From Flavobacteriaceae bacterium (GTDB lineage: Bacteria > Bacteroidota > Bacteroidia > Flavobacteriales > Flavobacteriaceae): a stretch of DNA of 10,833 nt. Made by a program: the position numbers and the translations under genes. Below, piece after piece: positions 1 through 10,833 of this stretch (the first letter of the stretch is position 1; each line of letters begins with the position of its first letter). The notes beneath the pieces were generated by a model. That model ran no database searches, was not told the DNA's origin, and saw only the letters and a list, made by a program, of their open reading frames with translations. The stretch covers positions 1 through 10,833 of the forward strand of contig JAUVCP010000036.1 of NCBI GenBank assembly GCA_030590765.1. The letters are read 5' to 3'.

Positions 1-423
1 AGAACGTACACCTTCTTGAATACGTGCACCTCCACTATCATTAAGTCCTATTACAGGAGCTCCAACTTTCATGGCCATATCCATTACCTTACAAATTTTT
101 AGAGCGTAAGTTTCGGACAACGAACCACCAAATACTGTAAAATCCTGAGAGAATACATAAACAATTCTACCGTCAATAGTACCATGCCCTGTAATAACAC
201 CATCAGAAAGGTATATTTGTTTGTCCAGACCAAAATCAATTGTTCTATGGGTTACAAACATATCAAACTCTTCAAAACTATCTTCATCTAATAGTAATTC
301 AATTCGTTCTCGTGCAGTTAGTTTCCCTTTAGCATGCTGGGATTCGATTCTTTTTTCACCACCTCCCAGTTTAGCTTTAGCTCTTTTTTCAATAAGCTCA
401 TTAATTTTTTTTTGATTTGCCAT
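1..423 (-). CDS. Acyl-CoA carboxyltransferase (propionyl-CoA carboxylase beta / methylmalonyl-CoA decarboxylase alpha type), N-terminal part
   Basis: The gene begins at the ATG complementary to 421-423 and runs off the left edge, leaving 141 codons of a protein that is usually about 510-520 residues. Visible motifs fit the biotin-dependent carboxyltransferase (crotonase-fold) family: a charged N-terminal helix, [15 protein letters not shown] at about 32-46, [13 protein letters not shown] at 92-104, and [13 protein letters not shown] at 126-138, the acyl-CoA/oxyanion region. Family knowledge: such enzymes move a carboxyl group between biotin and propionyl-CoA/methylmalonyl-CoA. The gene lies 58 bp downstream of methylmalonyl-CoA epimerase on the same strand, so the two are probably co-transcribed and act in propionate/succinate interconversion. 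The visible part cannot tell a cytosolic carboxylase (PccB) from the carboxyltransferase of a Na+-pumping decarboxylase (MmdA). The genes beyond the edge, biotin carrier and membrane decarboxylase subunits or biotin carboxylase, would decide. Confidence 0.92.
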
Positions 424-481
424 TATAATATTTATTTTTCTACCTGTTTTTGATTGAATTTGTAAACCGGTGAATTATTAT

Positions 482-883
482 TTATTTAGAACAAAGTTCA
501 GTAAGCACTCCGTGTGTTGATTTTGGATGTAGAAAACCAATGTTAAGCCCTTCAGCACCTTTTCTTGAAGATTTATCTATTAATCTTACTACTCTTTCTT
601 CTACGGTTTTTAATGCTTCGGTTGCATTGTCAACAGCAAAAGCAATATGATGCATTCCTTGTCCTTTTTTTTCAACAAATTTTCCAATTGGACCATCTGG
701 AGATGTACTTTCCAACAATTCAATTTTTGTTTCACCAACCATAAAAAATGCAGTTTTTACCTTTTGATCTGCTACTTCTTCAACAGAATAACATTTCAAG
801 CCTAATACACCTTCGTAGTATTTAATGGACTCTTCTAAATTGTTAACTGCAATTCCTATGTGTTCAATGTGTGTAATATTCAT
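482..883 (-). CDS. mce: Methylmalonyl-CoA epimerase
   Basis: This 133-residue protein of the vicinal-oxygen-chelate (glyoxalase-like) fold interconverts (R)- and (S)-methylmalonyl-CoA in the cytosol, linking methylmalonyl-CoA mutase to the carboxyltransferase encoded just downstream. The two repeated metal-binding halves are clear: IEHIGIAV at 6-13 and GMHHIAFAV at 76-84. The probable divalent-metal ligands, by comparison with the Propionibacterium enzyme, are His8, Gln40, His79 and Glu129. The family signatures VGETKIELLE (49-58), FLHPKSTHGVL (117-127) and the C-terminal TEL are present. Length is typical. The start is the ATG complementary to 881-883, directly before MNITHIEHIG, and no earlier start gives a better family match. 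A candidate -7 element lies about 27 bp upstream. The 58-bp gap to the carboxyltransferase, without a clear terminator, supports an operon. Confidence 0.95.
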   Translation of the reverse strand: MNITHIEHIGIAVNNLEESIKYYEGVLGLKCYSVEEVADQKVKTAFFMVGETKIELLESTSPDGPIGKFVEKKGQGMHHIAFAVDNATEALKTVEERVVRLIDKSSRKGAEGLNIGFLHPKSTHGVLTELCSK

Positions 884-909
884 AATTGTCTATTTTTTAA
901 AAGCGAGGA

Positions 910-917
910 CAAAATTA
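910..917 (-). promoter_or_regulatory. Candidate Bacteroidota -7 element for mce
   Basis: Read on the minus strand this is TAATTTTG, an exact match to the TAnnTTTG -7 consensus of Bacteroidota primary sigma factor promoters. It would give a leader of about 20 nt before the mce start. No good TTTG -33 box is seen at the usual distance, and the region is AT-rich, so a chance match is possible. Confidence 0.35.
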
Positions 918-1039
918 TTGTATAAATAAGCTTTATAATATGATTAAAATCATTTAATGTAACAAAAGTTATAAAGTTAGTCATAATTTTTTCTTAGAAG
1001 AATTTTTTTCACTGTGGTGCGATTTGGATAGATAATTTA

Positions 1040-1047
1040 TATATTTG
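1040..1047 (+). promoter_or_regulatory. Candidate Bacteroidota -7 element for the EEP-family gene
   Basis: TATATTTG matches TAnnTTTG and lies 36 bp before the preferred ATG at 1084. A TTTG at 1023-1026 is closer than the usual 19-bp spacing, so the -33 part is weak. A start of transcription just after this box would fall close to or inside the TTG at 1063, which supports translation from ATG 1084. Confidence 0.3.
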
Positions 1048-1083
1048 AATTGCATTATATAATTGTTTAAAAATCATAAACTT

Positions 1084-1881
1084 ATGAAATTATTAATTGT
1101 GCCATTTACAGTTGTTATGTTGACAATTAATTTAGCATGGTCTCAAAAAACGGATGAAGGGAGGGTCATAAAAATACTTTCGTTTAATATTTATCACGGG
1201 GCAACAACAAAAGGCAATTTTGATCTCGATATAATTGCTAAAATTATTATTGATACAGATCCCGACCTTGTTGCCTTGCAAGAAGTAGATTTTAAAACTA
1301 ACAGAGCAAAAAAATATGATTTGACTACAGAATTAGGTTGGAGATCAAAAATGGTTCCTCTTTTTGGAAAAGCAATGGACTTTGATGGAGGAGAATATGG
1401 CGAAGGAGTTTTATCAAAGTATTCATTTTTACATACCAGAAATGTTGTGTTGCCATATTCACTAGGTATTGAACCAAGAGCTGCTTTAGAGATTTCGGTA
1501 TTATTAAAATCAGGAGATACTGTATCATTTGTGGGAACACATCTGGATCATTTAAAAAAAGAGGTTGATCGGTTATCTCAAGCTAAAAAGATCAATGATG
1601 TGTTTACGAAAAATAAATATCCAACCATATTAGCAGGAGACCTGAATGCTATGCCTGGTAGTAAAACAATCAATATACTTGAAGAATTCTGGAAATCATC
1701 TTATGATAAAAAAGATCCAAAACCTACATATCCTTCAAATAACCCCTCTCGTAAAATTGATTATGTGATGTTATATCCTAAAAACAGATGGAAAGTGATC
1801 ACAACAGAGGTTATCCAGGATTCTATAGCTTCAGATCATTGTGCCTATTTGGTAACCGTAATGCTGCTGGATGAAGAATGA
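1084..1881 (+). CDS. Exported endonuclease/exonuclease/phosphatase (EEP) family protein
   Basis: The product is 265 residues from ATG 1084. A seven-codon longer form from TTG 1063 is possible but would put charged residues before the signal. Residues 1-21 (MKLLIVPF..LAWSQ) form a Sec signal peptide ending in the SQ often seen in Bacteroidota, so the protein acts outside the cytoplasm. The DNase I-like metal phosphoesterase motifs are complete and in order: SFNIYHG with Asn35, ALQEVD with metal ligand Glu67, EPRAAL with Arg132, GTHLDH with His153, AGDLNAMPGS with Asp186/Asn188, KIDYVML with Asp226, and SDH with Asp251/His252. An active Mg2+-dependent phosphodiesterase or phosphatase is likely. 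The substrate (nucleic acid, sphingomyelin or inositol phosphate) cannot be read from the sequence. The gene ends in a double stop, TGA TAA, and converges with the plug gene 5 bp away. Confidence 0.88.
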   Translation: MKLLIVPFTVVMLTINLAWSQKTDEGRVIKILSFNIYHGATTKGNFDLDIIAKIIIDTDPDLVALQEVDFKTNRAKKYDLTTELGWRSKMVPLFGKAMDFDGGEYGEGVLSKYSFLHTRNVVLPYSLGIEPRAALEISVLLKSGDTVSFVGTHLDHLKKEVDRLSQAKKINDVFTKNKYPTILAGDLNAMPGSKTINILEEFWKSSYDKKDPKPTYPSNNPSRKIDYVMLYPKNRWKVITTEVIQDSIASDHCAYLVTVMLLDEE

Positions 1882-1886
1882 TAATA

Positions 1887-3200
1887 TCAGTTCTTTAATA
1901 TTTCGGAACTGGCACTACCAACACCAATTACCTGATCATATAGTTCTCCGTATTTTTTATAATAAACAATAACGGTATAATTGTTTTCGGTTTGATAAAA
2001 TGAGCCTTCAATAGCATGCGTATTTATCTCCATATTGTTATTTGCTGTTACATAGGTGTAGTTATAAAACCCTTGTTTTAGTAACAAAGTTGTCTCAAAT
2101 AGTTTGGTTTTCGGATTATAAACCATTTTATGTTCATCTGTTATCTGCCAGTCATTAAGAGCACCATAAATATAAATATTTTCATTGTTCAGATCTTCTA
2201 AAAATTCCAATGCAAAATAAACGAAAGAATAATCGCCTTCCAATGAAGTATCATCCGAATCGATTGTGCGCGATACAAAATTACCATTAACATCAGGGTA
2301 AAATGAATATGGTTTTTTCCCTCTGGCCTCTGTATAATACAAGTAGGTGTTGAATATATTATTCAGTCTGGTTTTGGCTACATTATTTGTTGCATTTCTA
2401 ATTTCTTTAGTGTCAAAATATAGGTATTCATTACCAGCCCAATATGAAATTTCATCTACATAATTGTAAAGTAATTGAGTACCTCTAATATATTTTGGTT
2501 TGATGTTTTCAATTACTGAATTCCAGTCACCATTTTGATAAATAGCAATTTTTATTTCTTCATTTGGATTATTTAACAATAAGTTTTGGTGGTTGATCAC
2601 AAATTCTACACTTTGCTTTTCATTGATCGTACTTACTACTCTGCTTCTGTGAACACTTACCCCAACAACAACATTGGACTGGTAAATGATAAAACGACGA
2701 CTAAAAACAAGGTTTTCTTCTTCATCAAATATCGAAATTATATAATTACCTGTTTTTTTAATACGGTTATTCTCATTAGGTATTTGCAATTGATAATGTG
2801 TATAGCCTTGTAAAGTGTTGAATGAGTTTTCATAATTTCTAATTCTGTCAGTTGCATAGCCGGTCATGTATTCTGTTGATGCCATATTTGATTTTTCCCA
2901 GTTATAATCACAATGTTCAATTTTATAAGAATAAATGATTTCCTGAGCATTGATGTCATCAAAACTTAGTATTAATTTCTCTCCAAGTTGTATTATTGGA
3001 GCATATGCATTAGGTTTTAAAGGTTGTAAGACAATGGATTTAATATTGGCCGGGGGTATGACAATATTAGAATTTTGACTAAATAAACCAATTGAAAAAA
3101 TAAAACAAAACAAAAAAATTAATATACTTTTTTCAATCAGGAATATTTTGATATTAAAATTATTAAATATATCGTGAAATAACTTATTGATTGATACCAT
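1887..3200 (-). CDS. Type IX secretion system plug protein (DUF5103 family)
   Basis: The product is 437 residues. It has a positively charged N-region and a long hydrophobic stretch (about 24-40) ending GLFSQ, read as a signal peptide with an unusually long n-region of about 23 residues. No internal Met offers a shorter start. The DUF5103 signatures follow: SFDDINAQEIIYSYKIEHCDYNW (79-101), EYMTGY (110-115), NSFNTLQGYTHYQLQIPN (125-142) and TGNYIISIF (150-158). The C-terminal YDQVIGVGS is also family-like. Family knowledge: in Flavobacterium the Plug protein seals the periplasmic opening of the SprA outer-membrane translocon when no PorV-bound substrate occupies it. The protein is therefore expected in the periplasm with SprA. 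No other type IX component lies in this window. The gene is divergent from nqrA and convergent with the EEP gene. Length is typical. Confidence 0.88.
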   Translation of the reverse strand: MVSINKLFHDIFNNFNIKIFLIEKSILIFLFCFIFSIGLFSQNSNIVIPPANIKSIVLQPLKPNAYAPIIQLGEKLILSFDDINAQEIIYSYKIEHCDYNWEKSNMASTEYMTGYATDRIRNYENSFNTLQGYTHYQLQIPNENNRIKKTGNYIISIFDEEENLVFSRRFIIYQSNVVVGVSVHRSRVVSTINEKQSVEFVINHQNLLLNNPNEEIKIAIYQNGDWNSVIENIKPKYIRGTQLLYNYVDEISYWAGNEYLYFDTKEIRNATNNVAKTRLNNIFNTYLYYTEARGKKPYSFYPDVNGNFVSRTIDSDDTSLEGDYSFVYFALEFLEDLNNENIYIYGALNDWQITDEHKMVYNPKTKLFETTLLLKQGFYNYTYVTANNNMEINTHAIEGSFYQTENNYTVIVYYKKYGELYDQVIGVGSASSEILKN

Positions 3201-3375
3201 TTTGTATAATTAATTTATAAAGATTATAAATACTTTTTTAAAGAAATAAATGTTAAACAAATGCTAAACTATAAAATATTAATTATTAAATTTGCCATCG
3301 AATAATAAACATTTGATTTTTCTAAACTTTATAGTATTTATAGCATTAGGAAATTGAATTTAATTAGAGCAAATT
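3201..3375. promoter_or_regulatory. Divergent intergenic region between the plug gene and nqrA
   Basis: This very AT-rich 175-bp spacer must hold promoters for both the plug gene (leftward) and the nqr operon (rightward). The only exact plus-strand TAnnTTTG match seen is TAAATTTG at 3287-3294, about 80 bp before nqrA, with no clear TTTG box at 19 bp. No convincing minus-strand element, riboswitch or strong hairpin is visible. Confidence 0.4.
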
Positions 3376-4725
3376 ATGTCTACAGACATTCGAATTAAAA
3401 ATGGCTTAAATATTAAGCTAAAAGGTAGGGCAGAAAAAAACTTATCTTCAGTTAGTCGCTCCAAAGTATTTGCTATTTATCCAACAGATTTTCACGGAAC
3501 CTTACCAAAAATGGTAGTAAAGGTTGGTGATAAAGTAAAGGTTGGTGAAACTGTATTTTTTGCAAAACACGATGACAGAATTAAATTTACTTCACCTGTT
3601 AGTGGTGAGATAAAAGAAATTGTTAGAGGTGCAAAGCGAAAAATATTATCAGTAAAAATAGCAGCAGATAAAAGCGATGTTTATAAGGATTTTAGTCTAA
3701 AATCGCCTGGCAATTTAAGTAATGAACAGGTAAAAGAGTTATTATTGGAAAGCGGTTGTTGGGCTTATTTCAAGCAGCGTCCTTACGATGTGATTGCTAA
3801 TCCTGATGATAGTCCGAAATCTATTTTTATTTCAGCTAATGCAACAGCTCCTCTTGCGGCATCTCTTGAATTTACTTTATCCGATAAAGAAAAAGAATTC
3901 CAAACCGGTATTGATGCCATTTCAAAATTGACAGAAGGAAAAGTACATTTATCTGTAGATGGAAAAGGATCTTCATTTTTTAATGAGACCAAAGGAGTTG
4001 TTTTACATAAAGTAACAGGTAAACACCCTGCAGGAAATGTAGGAGTTCAGATCTCAAAGATTGACCCTGTAAATTCCGGAGAAAGAGTTTGGGTTATCAA
4101 CCCGCAGGATGTAGCTGCAATTGGATGTTTGATCTTAACAGGAAAATATGAACCATCAAGAATAATTGCACTGGCAGGATCTATGGTGGAACATCCTCAA
4201 TATTATAAAGTTATAGAAGGTACTCAAATAAGTGATATTGTTAATGGTAATTTGAAAACTGGTAAAGCCAGAATTATTAATGGAAACCCTTTAACAGGAA
4301 CTGCTGTCGGAGAGAATGGTGCAATTGGGTTTTATGATAATCTTATTTCTGTTATTCCAGAAGGGGATCATTATGATTTTTTTGGCTGGATGCCTTTTAT
4401 AGGAAATCATAAATTTAGTATGTCAAGGACTTTCTTTTCCTGGTTAACACCAAATAAAGAATATAATCTGGATACTAATTTTAATGGTGAAGACAGAGCT
4501 TTTGTGATTACCGGAGAAATGGAGAAAGTTATGCCAATTGATATCTATCCGATGCAGTTGCTAAAAGCAGCAATGATTGGAGATATTGAAAAAATGGAAA
4601 ATTTAGGAATTTATGAAGTAGCACCGGAGGATTTTGCATTGATTGATTTTGTAAGTACTTCAAAAATTGAAGCTCAAGATATTATCCGTCAAGGATTAGA
4701 TTTAATGATTAAAGAAGTAGGTTAA
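3376..4725 (+). CDS. nqrA: Na+-translocating NADH:quinone reductase subunit A
   Basis: This 449-residue protein is close to the usual length of about 447. NqrA is the soluble cytoplasmic-face subunit of the Na+-NQR complex and has been implicated in quinone/inhibitor binding. The N-terminus (IRIKNGLNIKLKGRAEK at 5-21) starts an RnfC-like barrel-sandwich/biotinyl-lipoyl-like domain. KMVVKVGDKVKVGETVFFAK at 45-64 and FTSPVSGEIKEIVRG at 72-86 are typical of it. KHPAGNVGVQI at about 216-226, ending in the conserved region before the central domain, and the GWMPFIGNHKFSMSR and MPIDIYPMQLLKA blocks near the C-terminus are characteristic. The C-terminal region lacks the 4Fe-4S cysteine motifs of RnfC, so this is Nqr and not Rnf. 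It is the first gene of nqrABCDE-[cassette]-nqrF, and its stop overlaps the nqrB start (TAATG), implying translational coupling. Confidence 0.96.
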   Translation: MSTDIRIKNGLNIKLKGRAEKNLSSVSRSKVFAIYPTDFHGTLPKMVVKVGDKVKVGETVFFAKHDDRIKFTSPVSGEIKEIVRGAKRKILSVKIAADKSDVYKDFSLKSPGNLSNEQVKELLLESGCWAYFKQRPYDVIANPDDSPKSIFISANATAPLAASLEFTLSDKEKEFQTGIDAISKLTEGKVHLSVDGKGSSFFNETKGVVLHKVTGKHPAGNVGVQISKIDPVNSGERVWVINPQDVAAIGCLILTGKYEPSRIIALAGSMVEHPQYYKVIEGTQISDIVNGNLKTGKARIINGNPLTGTAVGENGAIGFYDNLISVIPEGDHYDFFGWMPFIGNHKFSMSRTFFSWLTPNKEYNLDTNFNGEDRAFVITGEMEKVMPIDIYPMQLLKAAMIGDIEKMENLGIYEVAPEDFALIDFVSTSKIEAQDIIRQGLDLMIKEVG

Positions 4726-5867
4726 TGGATTTTTTAAGAAAACAAATAGATAAGATTAAACCTCACTTTGAAAAAGGAGGTAAGTATGAAAAATTTGGTC
4801 CTGCTTTTGGCGGAATTGAAACTTTTTTATATGTCCCAAATCACACAACTAAAGTTGGTTCCCATATTCGTGATGGTGTCGATTTGAAAAGAGTAATGAT
4901 GGTTGTTGTGATCGCTTTATTACCAGCGCTGATATTTGGAACATGGAATATTGGTTACCAAAATTTAGGTGAGGGTCACAGTTTTTGGGAGTATTTTAGT
5001 TTTGGAGGTGTTCGCATATTACCAATGATTATTATTTCCTATGGAGTAGGTTTAGGAATTGAATTTGCCTATGCTATTTTTAGAGGTCATTCTGTTAATG
5101 AAGGCTATTTGGTTACAGGATTACTCATCCCTTTGATCATGCCTATTGATCTGCCATTATGGATGTTGACAATATCTGTAATTTTTGCCGTGGTAATTGG
5201 TAAGGAAGCATTTGGAGGTACTGGAATGAATATATTAAATCCGGCTTTAATTGCCAGGGCATTTGCATTATTTTCATATGCACCATTCATGTCGGGTAAT
5301 ACAGTTTGGGTTGCCGATTCTGTTGCTGACGGTGTTTCTGGTGAAACAGTATTAGGTGTTTTGGCCGGGAATAAAATGCCTGACACAAGTGTTTTTGATA
5401 TGTTTATGGGATATATGCCCGGTTCTGTTGGAGAAACGTCTGTTTTAATGATCTTGATCGGTGCTGCAATATTACTTTTTACAGGAATTGCAAGTTGGAG
5501 AATTATGGTAGCTTCTGTAATAGGAGCATCTTTAACAGGATTGTTATTTAATGCAATAGGTAGTGATACCAATGCTTTATTTAACTTTCCTTGGTGGCAA
5601 CACATGTTAGTCGGAGGTTTTGCTTTTGGTATGGTGTTTATGGCAACCGACCCGGTTACTGCCGCACAAACTACAAAGGGAAAATGGATTTACGGGTTCT
5701 TAGTTGGGGTTTTTGCAATTCTGATCAGAATTGTTAACCCAACCATACCGGAAGGTGTTATGATGGCAATTCTATTAATGAATGTATTTGCACCAACCAT
5801 TGATCATTACGTTATTGAAAGTAATGTAAAAAGAAGAAAAAAGAGATTACAAAAAGTTAAAGCGTAA
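4725..5867 (+). CDS. nqrB: Na+-translocating NADH:quinone reductase subunit B
   Basis: This 380-residue multi-spanning inner-membrane subunit carries covalent FMN and riboflavin and forms much of the Na+ path. The N-terminal amphipathic segment and ETFLYVPNHTTKVGSHIRDG (32-51) precede the first membrane helix (about 56-72). Later helices include about 97-117, 127-159, 240-280, 293-306 and 322-358. The signatures GKEAFGGTGMNILNPALIARAF (159-180) and FMATDPVTAAQTTKGKWIYG (305-324) are strong. The FMN site by alignment to Vibrio NqrB is Thr208 in DGVSGET (202-208). The usual residue before this Thr is Ala, here Glu207, which is unusual but leaves the acceptor Thr and the leading Asp in place. 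The protein is about 30 residues shorter than Vibrio NqrB, partly in the loop after this motif. Its start overlaps the nqrA stop, and it ends 5 bp before nqrC. Confidence 0.96.
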   Translation: MDFLRKQIDKIKPHFEKGGKYEKFGPAFGGIETFLYVPNHTTKVGSHIRDGVDLKRVMMVVVIALLPALIFGTWNIGYQNLGEGHSFWEYFSFGGVRILPMIIISYGVGLGIEFAYAIFRGHSVNEGYLVTGLLIPLIMPIDLPLWMLTISVIFAVVIGKEAFGGTGMNILNPALIARAFALFSYAPFMSGNTVWVADSVADGVSGETVLGVLAGNKMPDTSVFDMFMGYMPGSVGETSVLMILIGAAILLFTGIASWRIMVASVIGASLTGLLFNAIGSDTNALFNFPWWQHMLVGGFAFGMVFMATDPVTAAQTTKGKWIYGFLVGVFAILIRIVNPTIPEGVMMAILLMNVFAPTIDHYVIESNVKRRKKRLQKVKA

Positions 5868-5872
5868 TTATT

Positions 5873-6568
5873 ATGGATAGAAATAGTAATATATATACTT
5901 TTATTTTCGCCATCGTTATGGTTGTTGTAGTAGCGGCTATTTTAGCTTTTACAGCAACAACATTAAAACCATTGCAGGCAGAAAATGTTAGAAAAGAGAA
6001 GATGCAAAATATTTTATCAACTATTGGGGTTGATGTTGACAGAGAGCAAGCGGGAGCTAAGTTTGAAGAATATATCAAGGAGCAGTTGGCATTAAAGTCT
6101 GATGGCTTGGTTAATAGTGAAGTTGATGCATTTAAAATGGATTTACATAAAGAAACAAAAAAACCTCATGAAAATCAGAATTACCCAATTTATTTAGCTG
6201 AAAAAGATGGTAAAAAGTATTATATAGTTCCTTTATATGGTGCTGGTCTTTGGGATGCAATCTGGGGCTATATCGCCTTAGAAAGTGATAAAAATACAAT
6301 TTTTGGAGCTTCTTTTGATCACGCAGGTGAAACTCCGGGTCTTGGAGCTGAGATCAACCAATCTTGGTTTGAAGATGAATATATAGGAAAAACTATTTTT
6401 GATGAAGAAGGAAATTTTGTTTCAGTTAAAGCAATCAAAGGAGGGGCAAAAGTTGGAGATATGCATGGAGTAGATGCAATTTCAGGAGGAACCATAACAT
6501 CTGACGGTGTAACTGATATGGTTGAGGAAAGACTTAATAATTATATACCATATCTTAAAAAGGATTAA
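5873..6568 (+). CDS. nqrC: Na+-translocating NADH:quinone reductase subunit C
   Basis: This 231-residue subunit has one N-terminal membrane helix (about 8-29) and a large periplasmic FMN-binding domain. The C-terminal motif [15 protein letters not shown] (199-213) contains the flavinylation acceptor Thr207, to which the flavin transferase ApbE would attach FMN as a phosphoester. The classic consensus is SGAT, and here the Ala is Gly206. [17 protein letters not shown] (120-136), [16 protein letters not shown] (146-161) and the motif itself are standard FMN-binding-domain landmarks. Length is slightly short of the Vibrio protein (about 257). The gene sits 5 bp after nqrB and 2 bp before nqrD, so translation is tightly linked. 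The product passes electrons between the iron centre in NqrD/E and the FMN of NqrB. Confidence 0.95.
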
Positions 6569-6570
6569 TT

Positions 6571-7242
6571 ATGGCAAAGGAAAAAGAAGCGTTGTTTTCA
6601 CAAAAGAACAGAAGATTATTATTAGATCCGCTGAATGATGATAATCCAATTACAGTTCAGGTATTAGGTATTTGTTCTGCCTTAGCAATAACAGTACAAT
6701 TAAAACCAGCAATAGTTATGGCCGTTGCTGTTATGTTTGTACTGGTTTTTGGTAATCTGATCGTTTCATTGATGAGAAATATAATTCCTAACCGAATTAG
6801 AATTATCGTTCAGTTATTGATTGTTGCTTTTTTAGTGATCTTGGTTGATCAGGTGCTAAAAGCATATGCTTATGATGTAAGTAAAGAGTTATCTGTTTTT
6901 GTTGGTTTGATTATTACAAACTGTATTATCATGGGTAGGTTTGAAGCTTTTGCATTGGCTAACGGACCATGGAAATCAGTTTTAGATGGAATAGGAAACT
7001 CTTTGGGTTATGGTATTATTCTTGTGGTTGTAGCTTTTTTTAGAGAGTTGCTGGGATCAGGGAAACTGGGGGGAATTGAGGTGCTTGGGCACAAGGCAAA
7101 AACAATTGCTGAATCAACAGGTGTATACCAGTATGGTTATGAAAATAATGGTTTTATGCTATTATCACCAATGGCTTTGATCACTGTAGGAATTATTATT
7201 TGGTATCAAAGATCTAGAAATAGAAAATTAATTGAAGATTAA
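6571..7242 (+). CDS. nqrD: Na+-translocating NADH:quinone reductase subunit D
   Basis: This 223-residue integral membrane protein has about six helices and is homologous to RnfE. With NqrE it forms the inverted-repeat pair that holds an intramembrane iron/[2Fe-2S] centre. The two cysteines matching known ligands are Cys35 in LGICSALA and Cys118 in [14 protein letters not shown], the most characteristic block of this family. [26 protein letters not shown] (69-94), GNSLGYG (142-148) and [11 protein letters not shown] (156-166) are also typical. The N-terminal cytoplasmic tail of about 25 residues, with [17 protein letters not shown], is normal for Bacteroidota homologues, giving a length a little above the Vibrio protein (about 210). 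It starts 2 bp after the nqrC stop and is followed by a 43-bp gap before nqrE. Confidence 0.96.
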
Positions 7243-7285
7243 ATTATAAGGAAATTTTAAATCCTTTACTAAAAATAAAAATATC

Positions 7286-7903
7286 ATGGAAGATTTAGGA
7301 AGTTTATTTATAAAAAGCATATTTATTGACAATATGGTTTTTGCCTATTTTCTGGGAATGTGTTCCTATTTAGCTGTATCAAAAACAGTAAAAACAGCAG
7401 TGGGTCTGGGGGCAGCAGTAATTTTTGTAATGACAATTACTGTACCAGTCAACTATTTGTTAGATACTTATATCTTAAAAGAAGGAGCTTTGACATGGTT
7501 AGGGGCTGAATATGCAAGTATTGATCTGAGTTTTTTAAGTTTTATTATGTTTATTGCAGTAATTGCATCTATGGTGCAGTTGGTTGAAATGATCGTTGAA
7601 CGTTTTGCACCTGCACTTTACAGTGAATTAGGGATCTTTTTACCATTGATTGCTGTGAACTGTGCAATATTAGGAGGGTCGTTATTCATGCAACAAAAAA
7701 ACTTTTCAACAGTGACTGAGTCTGTAGTTTATGGAACCGGTTCTGGAATAGGTTTTTTCCTTGCGATTTTAGCTATTGCGGCAATAAGAGAAAAGATTAC
7801 TTATTCAAATATTCCAAAACCTCTAAAAGGATTGGGTATTACCTTTATTATTACAGGATTAATGGCAATAGCTTTTATGAGCTTTTCAGGAATAAAATTA
7901 TAG
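7286..7903 (+). CDS. nqrE: Na+-translocating NADH:quinone reductase subunit E
   Basis: This 205-residue integral membrane partner of NqrD is homologous to RnfA. The iron-centre cysteines are Cys26 in [12 protein letters not shown] and Cys126 in [13 protein letters not shown], both inside half-buried re-entrant helices. [13 protein letters not shown] (14-26), [27 protein letters not shown] (96-122) and the C-terminal [28 protein letters not shown] are typical of the family, and the length matches. The start at ATG 7286 lies in an A-rich leader. The preceding 43-bp spacer has a short 5-bp AAGGA/TCCTT stem (7248-7252 with 7262-7266), too weak to call a terminator. Downstream, instead of the usual short gap to nqrF, there are 463 bp holding an inserted inverted-repeat cassette that begins about 7-12 bp after the nqrE stop. 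Confidence 0.96.
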
Positions 7904-7915
7904 ACGGTACGATTA

Positions 7916-7940
7916 AAGAATAAAGAATCAGGAACCAAGA
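7916..7940 (+). repeat. Left inverted-repeat arm of the S23 cassette
   Basis: The arm starts AAGAATAAAGAATCA and ends ACCAAGA. It is built from purine-rich near-repeats of AAGAATC/AAGAAC type. It pairs with 8323-8347 with three mismatched positions, and weaker similarity extends outward on both sides (28 of 36 between 7911-7946 and 8317-8352). It begins 12 bp after the nqrE stop and ends 11 bp before the four-helix-bundle start. Confidence 0.75.
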
Positions 7941-7951
7941 TATTTAGTTTA

Positions 7952-8320
7952 ATGAGTAAACGCAAAAGACATAATTTTAAAAATTTGAAAATTTGGCAAG
8001 AAAGCATTGAGTTAGTTTCAGAAACATATAAGCTAACCAGAACTTTTCCAAAATTTGAAGTATACAATTTGTCAAATCAATTAAATAGGTGTTCAGTTTC
8101 TATTCCCTCAAATATTGCAGAAGGGACTAGTAAAAGTTCAGATAAGCATTTTAATAAATTTCTTGAAGATAGTTTAGGTTCTGCTTTTGAGTGAGAAACA
8201 CAATTAATAGTTGCCTTTAATGAAAAATATTTAGAAATAAATAAATTCAAAGAATTAGAAGAAAAAATAATAAAAATTCAAAGAATGATTTCAGGATTTC
8301 AAGAAACCTTAGACGTTTAA
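7952..8320 (+). pseudogene. Four-helix-bundle protein of the S23 (23S rRNA intervening sequence) family, interrupted by an in-frame TGA
   Basis: The frame 7952-8320 encodes about 122 residues of a canonical S23-type four-helix bundle, broken by TGA at 8192-8194. Before the stop lie 80 residues with the family hallmarks: FKNLKIWQESIELV (9-22), the FPK..VYNLSNQLNR turn (32-46), CSVSIPSNIAEG (47-58) and SLGSAFE (74-80). After the stop the same frame continues ETQLIVAFNEKYLEI and a final basic helix ending at TAA 8318-8320, where the family normally reads a Leu between E and ETQL. One T-to-G change in a TTA codon would explain the stop. The truncated product would lack helices 3-4. No in-frame ATG soon after the stop allows restart. 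The biochemical role of S23 proteins is unknown; the related Avd protein of diversity-generating retroelements shares the fold. Sequencing error or read-through remain possible. Confidence 0.82.
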
Positions 8321-8322
8321 AG

Positions 8323-8347
8323 TCTTAGTTCTTGATTCTTGATTCTT
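8323..8347 (-). repeat. Right inverted-repeat arm of the S23 cassette
   Basis: On the minus strand this arm reads as tandem AAGAATC, AAGAATC, then AAGAACTAAGA, and matches the left arm at 22 of 25 positions. It begins 2 bp after the stop of the four-helix-bundle frame and lies 19 bp before the nqrF start. It has a clearer seven-base tandem structure than the left arm. Confidence 0.75.
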
Positions 8348-8366
8348 CTATCAATAACAAATAGAA

Positions 8367-9659
8367 ATGAATCCAATCGTAGCAAGTGTAGTTTTTTCTC
8401 TAGTATTGATACTAGTTTTAGTAACCATATTATTAGTAGCTAAGGCAAAATTACTTCCATCAGGGAAAGTAATGATCAAAATAAACGGGAAAAAAGAAAT
8501 TGAAGTTGAAACAGGGAGTACTCTTTTAACAACTTTGGGAAATAAAAAAATATTTTTACCATCAGCTTGTGGTGGTGGTGGAACCTGTATCCAATGTGAA
8601 TGCCATGTGCAAAGTGGAGGTGGTGAGGCATTACCAACAGAAGTGCCAAATTTTACACGTAAACAATTGGCTGAAGGAATTCGTCTCGCTTGTCAGGTAA
8701 AAGTAAAAGAGGATATGGAAATTACCATTCCTGAAGAAATATTTGGCATCAAAAAGTTTGAAGCAACTGTAGTTTCCAATTATAATGTTGCTTCCTTTAT
8801 CAAAGAATTTGTTGTTGAATTACCTGAAGATATGGATTATAAAGCAGGTGGTTATATTCAAATTGAAATACCTAATACAGTTGTTGATTTTAAGGATATT
8901 GATATTGCAGCCCACCCTATTGAACACCCGGGAGAACCGGAAAAATTTAAAAAGGAATGGGATACCTTTAACCTGTGGCCGTTACAAATGAAAAATAGTG
9001 AAGAGGTTGAAAGAGCTTATTCTATGGCTTCTTATCCTGCAGAAGGGAGAAATGTAATGTTAAATGTTCGTATTGCTACTCCGCCATGGGATAGAGCTAA
9101 AAATGATTGGATGAATGTGAATCCAGGTGTTGCATCTTCTTATATTTTTAGTAGAAAACCAGGTGACAAAGTAATTGTTTCCGGACCTTATGGTGAATTC
9201 TTTATCAATGAAAGTGATTCCGAGATGTTGTACGTTGGTGGTGGTGCTGGTATGGCACCAATGCGTTCTCATTTATATCATTTGTTTAAAACCTTGCAAA
9301 CAGGAAGAAAAGTAACTTATTGGTATGGTGGTAGATCTAAACGTGAGTTATTCTATGTAGATCATTTTAGAGATTTGGAAAAAGAATTCTCTAATTTTAG
9401 ATTCTTTATTGTTCTGTCAGAACCTGCTGAAGAAGATAACTGGAAAGTGATGAAGGATGTTGATGATAAAAAAGGAGATGGATTCCTTGGTTTTGTACAT
9501 CAGGCCGTTATTGATCAGTATCTGTCTAAACATGATGCTCCTGAAGATCTGGAGTTATATTTCTGTGGTCCCCCAATGATGAATAATGCAGTTCAGAAAA
9601 TGGGCGAAGACTTTGGTCTTGCCGATGAAAATATCCGATTTGATGACTTTGGAGGTTAA
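8367..9659 (+). CDS. nqrF: Na+-translocating NADH:quinone reductase subunit F
   Basis: This 430-residue NADH-oxidising subunit is slightly longer than the Vibrio protein (about 407). Domains in order: one N-terminal membrane helix (about 4-25); a plant-type ferredoxin domain with [2Fe-2S] ligands Cys68, Cys74, Cys77 and Cys109 in PSACGGGGTCIQC and RLACQV; a ferredoxin-reductase FAD domain with RAYSMASYP (216-224); and an NADH-binding domain with VGGGAGMAPMRSHL (290-303), YWYGGRSKRELFY (318-330) and YFCGPPMMNNAV (398-409). It ends in the conserved FDDFGG tail. It hands electrons from NADH via FAD and the [2Fe-2S] cluster to the NqrD/E iron centre. It is separated from nqrE by the S23 cassette, so its expression depends on transcription through the cassette or on a promoter inside it. 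No clear TAnnTTTG is seen in the 19 bp after the right arm. A strong terminator follows. Confidence 0.97.
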   Translation: MNPIVASVVFSLVLILVLVTILLVAKAKLLPSGKVMIKINGKKEIEVETGSTLLTTLGNKKIFLPSACGGGGTCIQCECHVQSGGGEALPTEVPNFTRKQLAEGIRLACQVKVKEDMEITIPEEIFGIKKFEATVVSNYNVASFIKEFVVELPEDMDYKAGGYIQIEIPNTVVDFKDIDIAAHPIEHPGEPEKFKKEWDTFNLWPLQMKNSEEVERAYSMASYPAEGRNVMLNVRIATPPWDRAKNDWMNVNPGVASSYIFSRKPGDKVIVSGPYGEFFINESDSEMLYVGGGAGMAPMRSHLYHLFKTLQTGRKVTYWYGGRSKRELFYVDHFRDLEKEFSNFRFFIVLSEPAEEDNWKVMKDVDDKKGDGFLGFVHQAVIDQYLSKHDAPEDLELYFCGPPMMNNAVQKMGEDFGLADENIRFDDFGG

Positions 9660-9682
9660 TTAAGAGAAATATTATATTATAT

Positions 9683-9718
9683 AAAAGCAGTATCGGAAGA
9701 TGCTGCTTTTTCTTTTTT
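9683..9718 (+). terminator. Rho-independent terminator of the nqr operon
   Basis: A 12-bp stem (9683-9694 with 9699-9710, one G-U pair) closes on a GGAA tetraloop of GNRA type and is followed by a U-rich tract ending in six Ts. It lies 24 bp after the nqrF stop and marks the operon end. Confidence 0.88.
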
Positions 9719-9723
9719 AAGAT

Positions 9724-9748
9724 AAAATTATCATTTGATAATTTTTTT
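9724..9748 (+). terminator. Second AT-rich hairpin, possible back-up terminator
   Basis: A perfect 9-bp stem (9724-9732 with 9737-9745) with loop ATTT is followed by three further Ts. The stem has a single G-C pair, so it is weak as a terminator. It could equally be an operator or leader hairpin upstream of the hydrolase gene, which starts 40 bp later. Confidence 0.4.
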
Positions 9749-9785
9749 GTCTTTGTTAAAATTGTAAATTTATAAAAAATCAAAA

Positions 9786-10583
9786 ATGCCTTTTTACATA
9801 ATTATTATAATAGCTGTTGTTATTATCATGGTAATTATTAGTGCTATCCTTTATCTAGTTCAGGATAGAATAATATTTCATGCTGAAAAATTACCGGCTA
9901 ATTATAAATTTTCATTTAGAAATGACTTTGAGGAGATTAATCTTAAAACAAATGATAATCAAACACTTAACGGATTATTATTTAAGGTGCAAGATGCAAA
10001 AGGAGTAATTTTGTTTTTCCATAATCACTCGGGTAATATTGAGCATTGGAGCAGATCAGCTAATTATATCAATCATTTAAAATATGATGCCTTGTTGATG
10101 GATTTCAGAGGTTACGGTAAAAGCACTGGGACTTATAATGAAAAGTTGATGTATGAAGATGCTAAACTCTGGTATGATTTCACAAAAGATCTTTATGATG
10201 AAAGTTTAATTACTGTTTATGGTCGTGGAATTGGAGGGTCTTTTGCTACTTATGTGTCATCTGTTAATAATCCAAAGCAATTGATACTTGAGTCTCCTTT
10301 GTATGATTTGATCTTCACTTCAAAGATCCATTATCCTTATATTCTTCTTATGGAGTTCATTCCAAAATATAGGTTTGATACAGCTGCTTATATTAAAAAT
10401 GTAAAATGCAAAATTTATATTATTCATGGAAAATTAAATACGCTTGTAGATTATAGAAATAGTTTGAAACTGTACGAGCTGGCCAAAGATAATATTGATT
10501 TGTTGATTATTCCGGATGGCAATCACTATAATTTGGTAAACCATCAAATATATCTGAATAAAGTGGAAGAAATATTAAAATAA
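9786..10583 (+). CDS. Membrane-anchored alpha/beta-hydrolase-fold protein lacking the nucleophile serine
   Basis: This 265-residue protein has one N-terminal membrane helix (about 3-25) followed by an alpha/beta-hydrolase domain resembling the ABHD13/BEM46-type serine aminopeptidase group. Fold landmarks are GVILFFHNHSGN (73-84, oxyanion region), LLMDFRGYGKSTGT (103-116), TVYGRGIGGSFA (143-154, nucleophile elbow), LILESP (166-171), IIHGKLNTLVDY (212-223) and PDGNHYNL (243-250). The elbow, normally G-x-S-x-G, reads G-R-G-I-G, with Gly148 in the Ser place. The acid position after HG, usually Asp, is Asn218. Only His247 of the expected triad remains. Either catalysis is lost or it works differently, so a binding or scaffolding role is possible. 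The frame is intact, which argues against simple decay. It appears to be a single-gene unit between terminators. Substrate is unknown. Confidence 0.85.
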   Translation: MPFYIIIIIAVVIIMVIISAILYLVQDRIIFHAEKLPANYKFSFRNDFEEINLKTNDNQTLNGLLFKVQDAKGVILFFHNHSGNIEHWSRSANYINHLKYDALLMDFRGYGKSTGTYNEKLMYEDAKLWYDFTKDLYDESLITVYGRGIGGSFATYVSSVNNPKQLILESPLYDLIFTSKIHYPYILLMEFIPKYRFDTAAYIKNVKCKIYIIHGKLNTLVDYRNSLKLYELAKDNIDLLIIPDGNHYNLVNHQIYLNKVEEILK

Positions 10584-10611
10584 AAAAAGCTGTCGATTGA
10601 CAGCTTTTTTT
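10582..10611. terminator. Bidirectional terminator between the hydrolase and OmpA-family genes
   Basis: A perfect 13-bp stem (10582-10594 with 10599-10611) has loop GATT and core AGCTGTC/GACAGCT. Seven As lie on one side and seven Ts on the other, so it can end transcription from both convergent genes. It overlaps the hydrolase TAA stop. Confidence 0.88.
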
Positions 10612-10631
10612 ATGAATTAAATATTAAAACC

Positions 10632-10833
10632 TTATTCTGGTTTTTGTTCTAAGATATCAAAGAACTGATCTAATTTAGGTAAGATAACAATTCTTGTTCT
10701 TCTGTTGGTTGATCTTCCATCAGGAGTATCATTCGTTTCTAGAGGAACATATTCACTTCTACCGGCAGCAATTAATCTTCCTGGATCTACGGCATAGTCA
10801 CTTTGTAATACTCTTACAACTGCAGTAGCTCTT
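10632..10833 (-). CDS. OmpA-family protein, C-terminal end (peptidoglycan-binding domain)
   Basis: The gene enters from the right edge and ends at the TAA complementary to 10632-10634. About 66 C-terminal residues are visible. They show the late half of an OmpA/MotB-like domain: RATAVVRVLQSDYAVDPGRL, then AAGRSEYVPLETNDTPDGR, then STNRRTRIVILPKLDQFF. The NDT..GR..NRRT block is the diagnostic signature, with the Asn/Asp and Arg positions that hold the diaminopimelate of peptidoglycan in family structures. The protein therefore probably ties an envelope component to the cell wall. The N-terminal part that would tell a porin, a lipoprotein or a motor-type stator protein apart is outside the window. 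A shared terminator separates it from the convergent hydrolase gene. Confidence 0.9.
   Translation of the reverse strand, partial: RATAVVRVLQSDYAVDPGRLIAAGRSEYVPLETNDTPDGRSTNRRTRIVILPKLDQFFDILEQKPE

Follow-up and report, generated by a model that had tools for sequence, protein, structure and literature searches.

An S23 gene between inverted heptad arms in the nqrE-nqrF spacer of a Flavobacteriaceae bacterium: probably a decaying copy of a widespread IVS-like operon cassette

The locus described here comes closest to two known systems, the intervening sequences (IVSs) of 23S rRNA genes and the heptanucleotide repeats of bacteria, for the latter of which we know of no agreed cause. According to passages of PMC4990558, the 23S rRNA IVS of Coxiella burnetii is bounded by inverted repeats and carries an S23 open reading frame (ORF) in the sense orientation, decayed in places; tandem heptamers (GACAGAT) lie at its 5' side in a number that varies by strain, and the IVS is excised by RNase III. 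The same passages describe the XCC0516-type S23 protein (PDB 2gsc) as a pentamer, and the role and origin of rRNA IVSs are there still termed unclear after 25 years. Heptamers appear in passages of PMC4692102 and PMC4679880 as largely intergenic tandem units of Xanthomonas (GGGAATC), Nostoc (GGGGATT), Calothrix and Beggiatoaceae (TAACTGA); most ORFs adjacent to the Xanthomonas heptamers run in the same direction, polymerase slippage is proposed for bacterial heptamers generally (PMC4692102), and neither 'S23' nor 'four helix' occurs in those passages of the two papers. S23-type genes are also found in a table of PMC5524665, where a four helix bundle gene lies between guanylate kinase and nicotinate-nucleotide adenylyltransferase, and in passages of PMC3936711, which list 23S_rRNA_IVP as a CRISPR-Cas-associated function and record 18 such genes in cas loci, for example between cas6 and cas4. 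PMC5041132 was dismissed as a precedent, as the passages concerned describe an insert in 16S rRNA and use 'S23' to number a figure. In the open-licence literature, which excludes bioRxiv preprints altogether and subscription papers for the most part, we found no report linking S23 genes of operons to heptad arms.

The window, that is the whole 10,833-nt stretch of DNA analysed (contig JAUVCP010000036.1, positions 1 to 10,833), comes from a genome (G000) whose assembly is 67% complete, and carries an nqr operon on the forward strand. The ORFs of nqrA, nqrB, nqrC and nqrD (3376-7242) make up its upstream part, NqrC being identified by PF04205 and the other three named from sequence and gene order; they are followed by nqrE (7286-7903), encoding the Rnf-Nqr membrane subunit (PF02508, 199.7 bits), and by nqrF (8367-9659), recognised by its ORF and its 2Fe-2S, FAD and NAD domain matches. 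The coordinates agree with the original prediction that nqrE and nqrF are set apart by a 463-bp insert, and this site, between two protein-coding genes, is outside 23S or 16S rRNA. The insert holds a forward-strand S23, or four-helix-bundle (23S_rRNA_IVP), frame at 7952-8320, and the predicted family was borne out by scores far over the cut-offs: in profile searches the open part of the frame (7952-8194, 80 aa) matched PF05635 with 93.2 bits (cut-off 33.8) and TIGR02436, 'four helix bundle protein', with 83.4 bits (cut-off 24). The repeats do frame this gene as predicted; an in-frame TGA at 8192-8194, which the prediction had overlooked, interrupts it, and the window copy is therefore probably broken. 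An intact relative occupies the same spacer in a second genome of the genus (G002), and a sequence search with that homologue (L061), rather than with the window copy, matched chain A of PDB 2gsc (XCC0516) with an E value of 9.5e-19. No mobility protein was found within the cassette, no Rfam family matched at gathering score anywhere in the window, and PADLOC defence models gave no match for four S23 proteins from other loci.

The arms of the window locus were recognised from the sequence, from arm scoring and from a predicted fold. The left arm (7916-7940, forward strand) is the G-richer of the two and consists of the degenerate heptads AAGAATA AAGAATC AGGAACC AAGA; the right arm (8323-8347, forward strand) is its inverted partner, with 22 of 25 positions matching, just as had been predicted from the sequence. 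In the predicted minimum-energy RNA fold, 23 bases of the 25-nt left arm are paired to the right arm. A stock repeat finder with 9-nt seeds returned no inverted pair in the window, because the longest exact run between the arms is 8 nt. The insert thus resembles the Coxiella rRNA IVS in its pairing arms, its sense S23 frame and the heptads within its arms, and differs from rRNA IVSs in lying in the spacer of a protein-coding operon, in that many copies per genome are possible (up to 17 among the matches listed) and in arms that vary by locus. With the published heptanucleotide repeats it shares the 7-nt tandem unit and the intergenic position; those passages make no link to S23, whereas the arrays here flank S23 genes and are often inverted.

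Arms were then compared across S23 loci of the order. The set comprised 156 loci, of which five were dropped for short flanks and 151 kept. Those from the genus came from 71 places (six more over the cut-off were omitted, their loci being unavailable, and three below it were left unused), and those from the rest of the order from 85 places in the upper part of the matches listed, several others, some of them stop-bearing or at contig ends, being omitted. Since the set was drawn in this way it leans to high-scoring copies, and the share of loci whose matched region is free of stops (141 of 151) is biased upward. The 151 loci represent 82 host sites, many of the loci being orthologous. An arm score was defined as the best inverted match between the 160 nt upstream and the 160 nt downstream of S23. 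The window locus scored 35, the three S23 loci of G000 scored 32-35, and 63 of the 151 loci reached 30 or more, a threshold missed by the other 88; with one member (the first) taken per site, 38 of 82 reached 30 and 52 of 82 reached 24. A score of at least 30 was seen in 0.7% of pairs when left and right flanks were swapped between loci, in none of 142 displaced flanks and in one of 969 ordinary genes (60 regions of 20 kb).

The 7-nt period, which the original prediction had missed, was evident in both flanks: identity at lag 7 was 0.41 upstream and 0.42 downstream of S23 as against 0.26 in far flanks, with further peaks at 14 and 21. Some loci appear by eye to have a period of 8 in place of 7 (L047, L059, L060, L070 and L099, four of these five belonging to divergent, low-scoring S23 types). 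The arms also had a polarity, the left being G-rich and the right C-rich in 75 of the 82 loci that have a bias, and 287 co-directional control spacers had no such pattern. Coding DNA upstream likewise had more G than C (117 of 141 loci), which alone would not yield a C-rich right arm. A search for further copies of the arms, which the prediction had called for, thus had a divided outcome. Inverted arms do recur beside S23 genes at many other sites; their sequence, however, is locus-specific, and the picture of terminal repeats holds as far as their inversion and not as to a single fixed sequence. One arm sequence common to every copy is ruled out by this variation between loci. Present-day selection on an RNA stem was likewise unsupported, as G.U mismatches between arms were fewer than A.C mismatches at every threshold (71 vs 102 at scores of at least 20, 61 vs 86 at 24 and 42 vs 54 at 30), and the lack of a G.U excess therefore counts against present-day selection for RNA pairing of the arms. 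Across 84 loci, stop triplets numbered 235 in left arms and 151 in right arms as against 194 and 116 after shuffling, a modest excess over a mononucleotide control that breaks the 7-nt period. With that period, one stop in each unit is enough to close every frame.

The original prediction had proposed a search for an empty site in close relatives, and such sites were found. Seventeen genomes of the genus had both a located nqrE and a readable spacer, and in 13 of them nqrE and nqrF are 21-26 nt apart. The spacer holds an S23 coding region in two, the window and the intact G002 copy, and a remnant in two, one internally deleted (G016) and one of arm type without S23 (G005); the remnants here and at the next two sites were called by eye. 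The two other S23 genes of G000 lie in spacers that are also empty in relatives, and have different arms. At fadB|fadA (the fad and leu genes being named by reading the sequence), 16 of 17 loci were readable: the spacer is 3-4 nt in nine, contains S23 in two (G000 and G002, of different types) and S23-less heptad hairpins in three, and is otherwise longer in two. Among 18 leuC|leuD loci the spacer is 9-42 nt in 11, and there are two with S23, one with a partial S23 remnant, three with heptad-like remnants and one ambiguous spacer of 58 nt. A heptad-like array without S23 was also noticed by eye in the spacer after leuD, beside leuC|S23|leuD (L002:2460-2520), and may be a dead pair of arms. Reciprocal empty and filled sites were found on two plasmids of Nostoc strain ATCC 53789, where two S23 genes lie in adjacent spacers, each of which measures 3 nt in the other plasmid, between flanking genes that are 93% and 91% identical; TTCTA-like bases flank both sides and are inseparable from the arm heptads.

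Placement of the S23 genes was strongly biased. At 137 of the 151 loci, including the window locus ('++'), S23 shares its direction with the genes on both sides within 500 nt, whereas 503 of 953 control gene triples are co-directional; the remaining S23 loci were antisense (3), '+-' (2), '-+' (1) or undecided (8). The distance from the upstream stop codon to the left arm has a median of 3 nt in the 56 well-armed loci, and that from the end of the right arm to the next start a median of 13 nt. Of the 82 distinct host sites 53 are singletons, and one spacer may hold quite unlike S23 proteins, with a minimum identity of 39% at fadB|fadA (15 genomes) and of 24% behind fadA (9 genomes). Two S23 cassettes bracket fadA in one operon on G002:C124 (L048/L087 and L206), on G115:C1 (L128) and probably on G073:C14 (L175). 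Heptad arrays without S23 were also chiefly in co-directional spacers (13 of 407, as against 1 of 234 convergent or divergent spacers; p = 0.02), a count made with a G+C filter that was added after an unfiltered run (6 of 124 co-directional, 1 of 77 other).

S23 genes were found beyond the phylum. A tblastn search of plasmid records found them in cyanobacteria, Azospirillum, Gemmatirosa and Riemerella, while one S23 query, run at E 1e-5, found nothing in 50,697 phage records. Twenty-three of the 28 plasmid records were analysed, five apparent near-duplicates being omitted; gene ends are approximate for loci without full annotation, and neighbour directions were transcribed by hand from tables. 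A heptad array was present in at least one flank of 19 of the 23 loci and, 500 nt further out, in two; lags of 5, 6 and 9 gave 0, 1 and 0 loci and lag 8 gave four. Inverted arms scoring at least 30 were found in 11 of the 23. One Nostoc plasmid has inverted TAGGGAG arrays on either side of S23, and an Anabaena plasmid has a GGTGACA array with S23 between cas6 and cas4; in Pseudanabaena (L369) two long arrays, AAAAGCT and AAAAGCC, lie around S23 in the same direction and are not inverted. The genes on either side of S23 are cas6 and cas4, or cas10 and cmr3, at three cyanobacterial plasmid loci (L374, L369 and L373), whose arms consist of heptads or octads, and this arrangement suggests a guest rather than a Cas protein; genes listed by others as CRISPR-Cas-associated are read here as settled cassettes. 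Flanking repeats of 8 nt in Gemmatirosa (L380) and of 7 nt in Azospirillum (L384) accompany S23 genes that are unannotated in the plasmid table.

Arms and protein appear to travel together. Between sites with dissimilar neighbours, defined as neighbour genes without a BLAST match (so that truncated neighbours could mask some orthologous sites), an arm similarity of at least 30 was reached by 58% of 48 pairs at 70-85% S23 identity, by 21% of 87 pairs at 60-70% and by about 0.8% of pairs below 40%. The overall correlation between S23 identity and arm similarity was 0.16, above all 500 permutations. This covariation, seen in sequence comparison, fits movement of whole cassettes, recognition of the arms by S23, or both. 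No near-identical S23 copies within one genome were present among the collected loci, the closest intragenomic pair at different sites being 80% identical, and therefore no recent burst was caught.

Taken together, it is likely that the nqrE-nqrF insert is a decaying copy of a widespread, IVS-like selfish cassette, in which S23 lies between inverted arms of degenerate heptads and which settles inside operons. The sites that are empty, filled or occupied by a remnant, the arms matched within a locus, the heptad period, the bias to operons and to the sense orientation and the polarity of the arms are all features of the compared sequences themselves; from the empty sites, and from S23-arm lineages occurring at different sites, we infer that the cassette is mobile. 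The original prediction of an IVS-like mobile unit in mRNA spacers is therefore upheld in its anatomy, namely inverted arms, a sense S23 ORF and heptamers as in the Coxiella IVS, and stays an inference as to mobility. The cassette would settle where one gene's stop codon gives way to the following gene's start codon, and its insertion in sense, almost always so in this order, would let it be read through on the host mRNA while both neighbours are spared. Its arms are predicted to pair in RNA around the S23 message, as others have shown for the IVSs of 23S rRNA, and the cassette would depend on host transcription, its RNA presumably being processed as in rRNA. It is most likely that the arms are bound by the S23 protein of the same cassette, because arms and protein travel together and the strand polarity of the arms is fixed. 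Copies that lose S23 would pass into heptad hairpins, and these into nothing.

Three further explanations of how such cassettes come to be where they are were weighed against this reading. The first, which we regard as unlikely, is that the cassette is non-autonomous and moves as DNA, mobilised in trans by a transposase of the host, either of the Y1/RAYT type and acting on hairpins or DDE, with selection purging antisense copies and those out of operons. The REP/BIME units with RAYT and the MITEs are small, hairpin-forming intergenic units. S23 cassettes share terminal inverted repeats with transposons and MITEs, and these inverted ends speak for a DNA-level element; S23-less heptad hairpins resemble MITEs, and differ from all of these units in having no common consensus. 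Three mobility families (RVT_1, Y1_Tnp and DDE_Tnp_1) were searched for in 119 genomes, 72 S23-positive and 47 S23-negative. Y1_Tnp was commoner in the S23-positive genomes (38 of 72 vs 6 of 47, raw counts uncorrected for kinship and genome size), but DDE_Tnp_1 (27 of 72 vs 6 of 47) and RVT_1 (20 of 72 vs 4 of 47), again as raw counts, were skewed alike, so that the association of Y1_Tnp may reflect a general mobile load. Furthermore, two nearly complete genomes with eight S23 copies each, G063 (99% complete) and G095 (97%), had no match to any of the three families, unlike what is expected of RAYT or MITE systems, and G115, with 17 copies, had among the three only a partial DDE match. In G000 itself the Y1 matches are partial and stop-bearing, and DDE_Tnp_1 matches are present. 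A Y1 transposase is thus a doubtful candidate for the mover, in spite of its association with S23. The differences between arms from locus to locus are also unlike the ends recognised by one transposase, and the G-rich/C-rich polarity would have to come from selection alone.

It is also rather improbable that the cassette is an RNA-level element, cut out of the transcript at the stem of its arms by RNase III and then either joined to other mRNAs or reverse-transcribed back. Such a route would lead to sense orientation and to sites within operons only, as the bias of the S23 loci and of the S23-less arrays towards co-directional spacers would have it, and the arms do pair in the predicted RNA. 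Avd is the partner of the reverse transcriptases of diversity-generating retroelements, and Avd profiles matched two of five S23 proteins, weakly and below the cut-off, in line with a distant relationship; in contrast to those retroelements, these matches are sub-threshold and RVT_1 had no match in the 67% complete assembly of G000. Excision by RNase III, for its part, is described for rRNA IVSs in passages of PMC4990558. However, of the 15 genomes richest in S23, 11 had no RVT_1 match, including G115 (17 copies), G043 (16) and G002 (12), and a resident reverse transcriptase was thus rejected as the mover. The arms, as mentioned above, have no G.U excess, and antisense copies do exist, making up 3 of 151 loci in the order and 3 of 23 on plasmids; the plasmid loci were otherwise '++' in 12 cases, '+-' in three, '-+' in one and undecided in four, and the bias to sense is weaker among them than in the order set.

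A third explanation, to which we give a similarly low standing, holds that S23 is an immobile, ordinary operon gene, regulatory in role, vertically inherited and often lost, with arms that are attenuator or processing hairpins and heptads that arose by replication slippage, much as polymerase slippage is proposed for heptamers in passages of PMC4692102. It gains from named genomes, which were scanned with the S23 clade of the window; the best 80 of at least 485 confirmed relatives were analysed. All 80 are Bacteroidota by title or genus, mostly Flavobacteriia; 79 are co-directional with both neighbours, and for one no gene was called downstream. Grouped by their neighbours, 30 are at fadB|fadA and 48 on the other side of fadA, ahead of a gene that reads as an acyl-CoA dehydrogenase, with two elsewhere or at sites cut by a contig end. 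Seventy-seven of these 80 frames are free of internal stops, and divergence at third codon positions is 0.48 as against 0.28 and 0.20 at the others; the S23 protein is therefore under selection and some cassettes are long-lived. With 78 of these best 80 at two fad sites, and with this excess of third-position change, S23 could there be a useful, vertically kept gene. In the same 80 loci the lag-7 peak was equally strong (0.40/0.42), and an arm score of at least 30 was reached by 10%, as against 5% of swapped pairs. Own arms beat swapped arms at the 30 fadB|fadA loci (mean rank 0.75) and did no better than swapped arms at the 50 loci behind fadA, counting the two outside the cluster (mean rank 0.42), a result that speaks against constant renewal of the arms. 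Against an immobile gene stand the 82 host sites among 151 loci, with their 53 singletons, the unlike S23 types that share one spacer (down to 39% identity at fadB|fadA), the fadB|fadA spacers of 3-4 nt in nine of 16 readable loci, and the recurrence of an S23 lineage with its arms at unrelated sites. Finally, the idea that AT-rich DNA produced the 22/25 repeat of the window by chance, for which the blank 9-nt-seed search might have spoken, is ruled out for practical purposes, as swapped flanks, displaced flanks and ordinary genes rarely or never reach its score and all three S23 loci of G000 do.

The selfish, operon-settling cassette thus remains the reading that we favour for the window locus. 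As a wider and tentative proposal, which we think possible though somewhat doubtful, S23 genes and heptanucleotide repeats may belong together as components of a single type of element spread across several phyla. The rRNA IVS would then be its rRNA-resident form, the S23 pentamer would read the heptad arms of its own cassette, and the heptanucleotide arrays present in cyanobacteria, Xanthomonas and Bacteroidota would be live or dead arms, with entry at the stop/start junctions of operons achieved without the usual resident mobility enzymes. Seen from this locus, the odd inserts of rRNA genes seem to be a single instance of a broader class of guests in operons, and a single S23 cassette would tie rRNA IVSs and heptanucleotide repeats into a common, testable object. 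It raises the question of how a cassette enters a 3-nt gap between two genes harmlessly. If true, the S23 genes found in cas and metabolic operons would be relabelled as guests, and not as parts of the pathways among which they lie.
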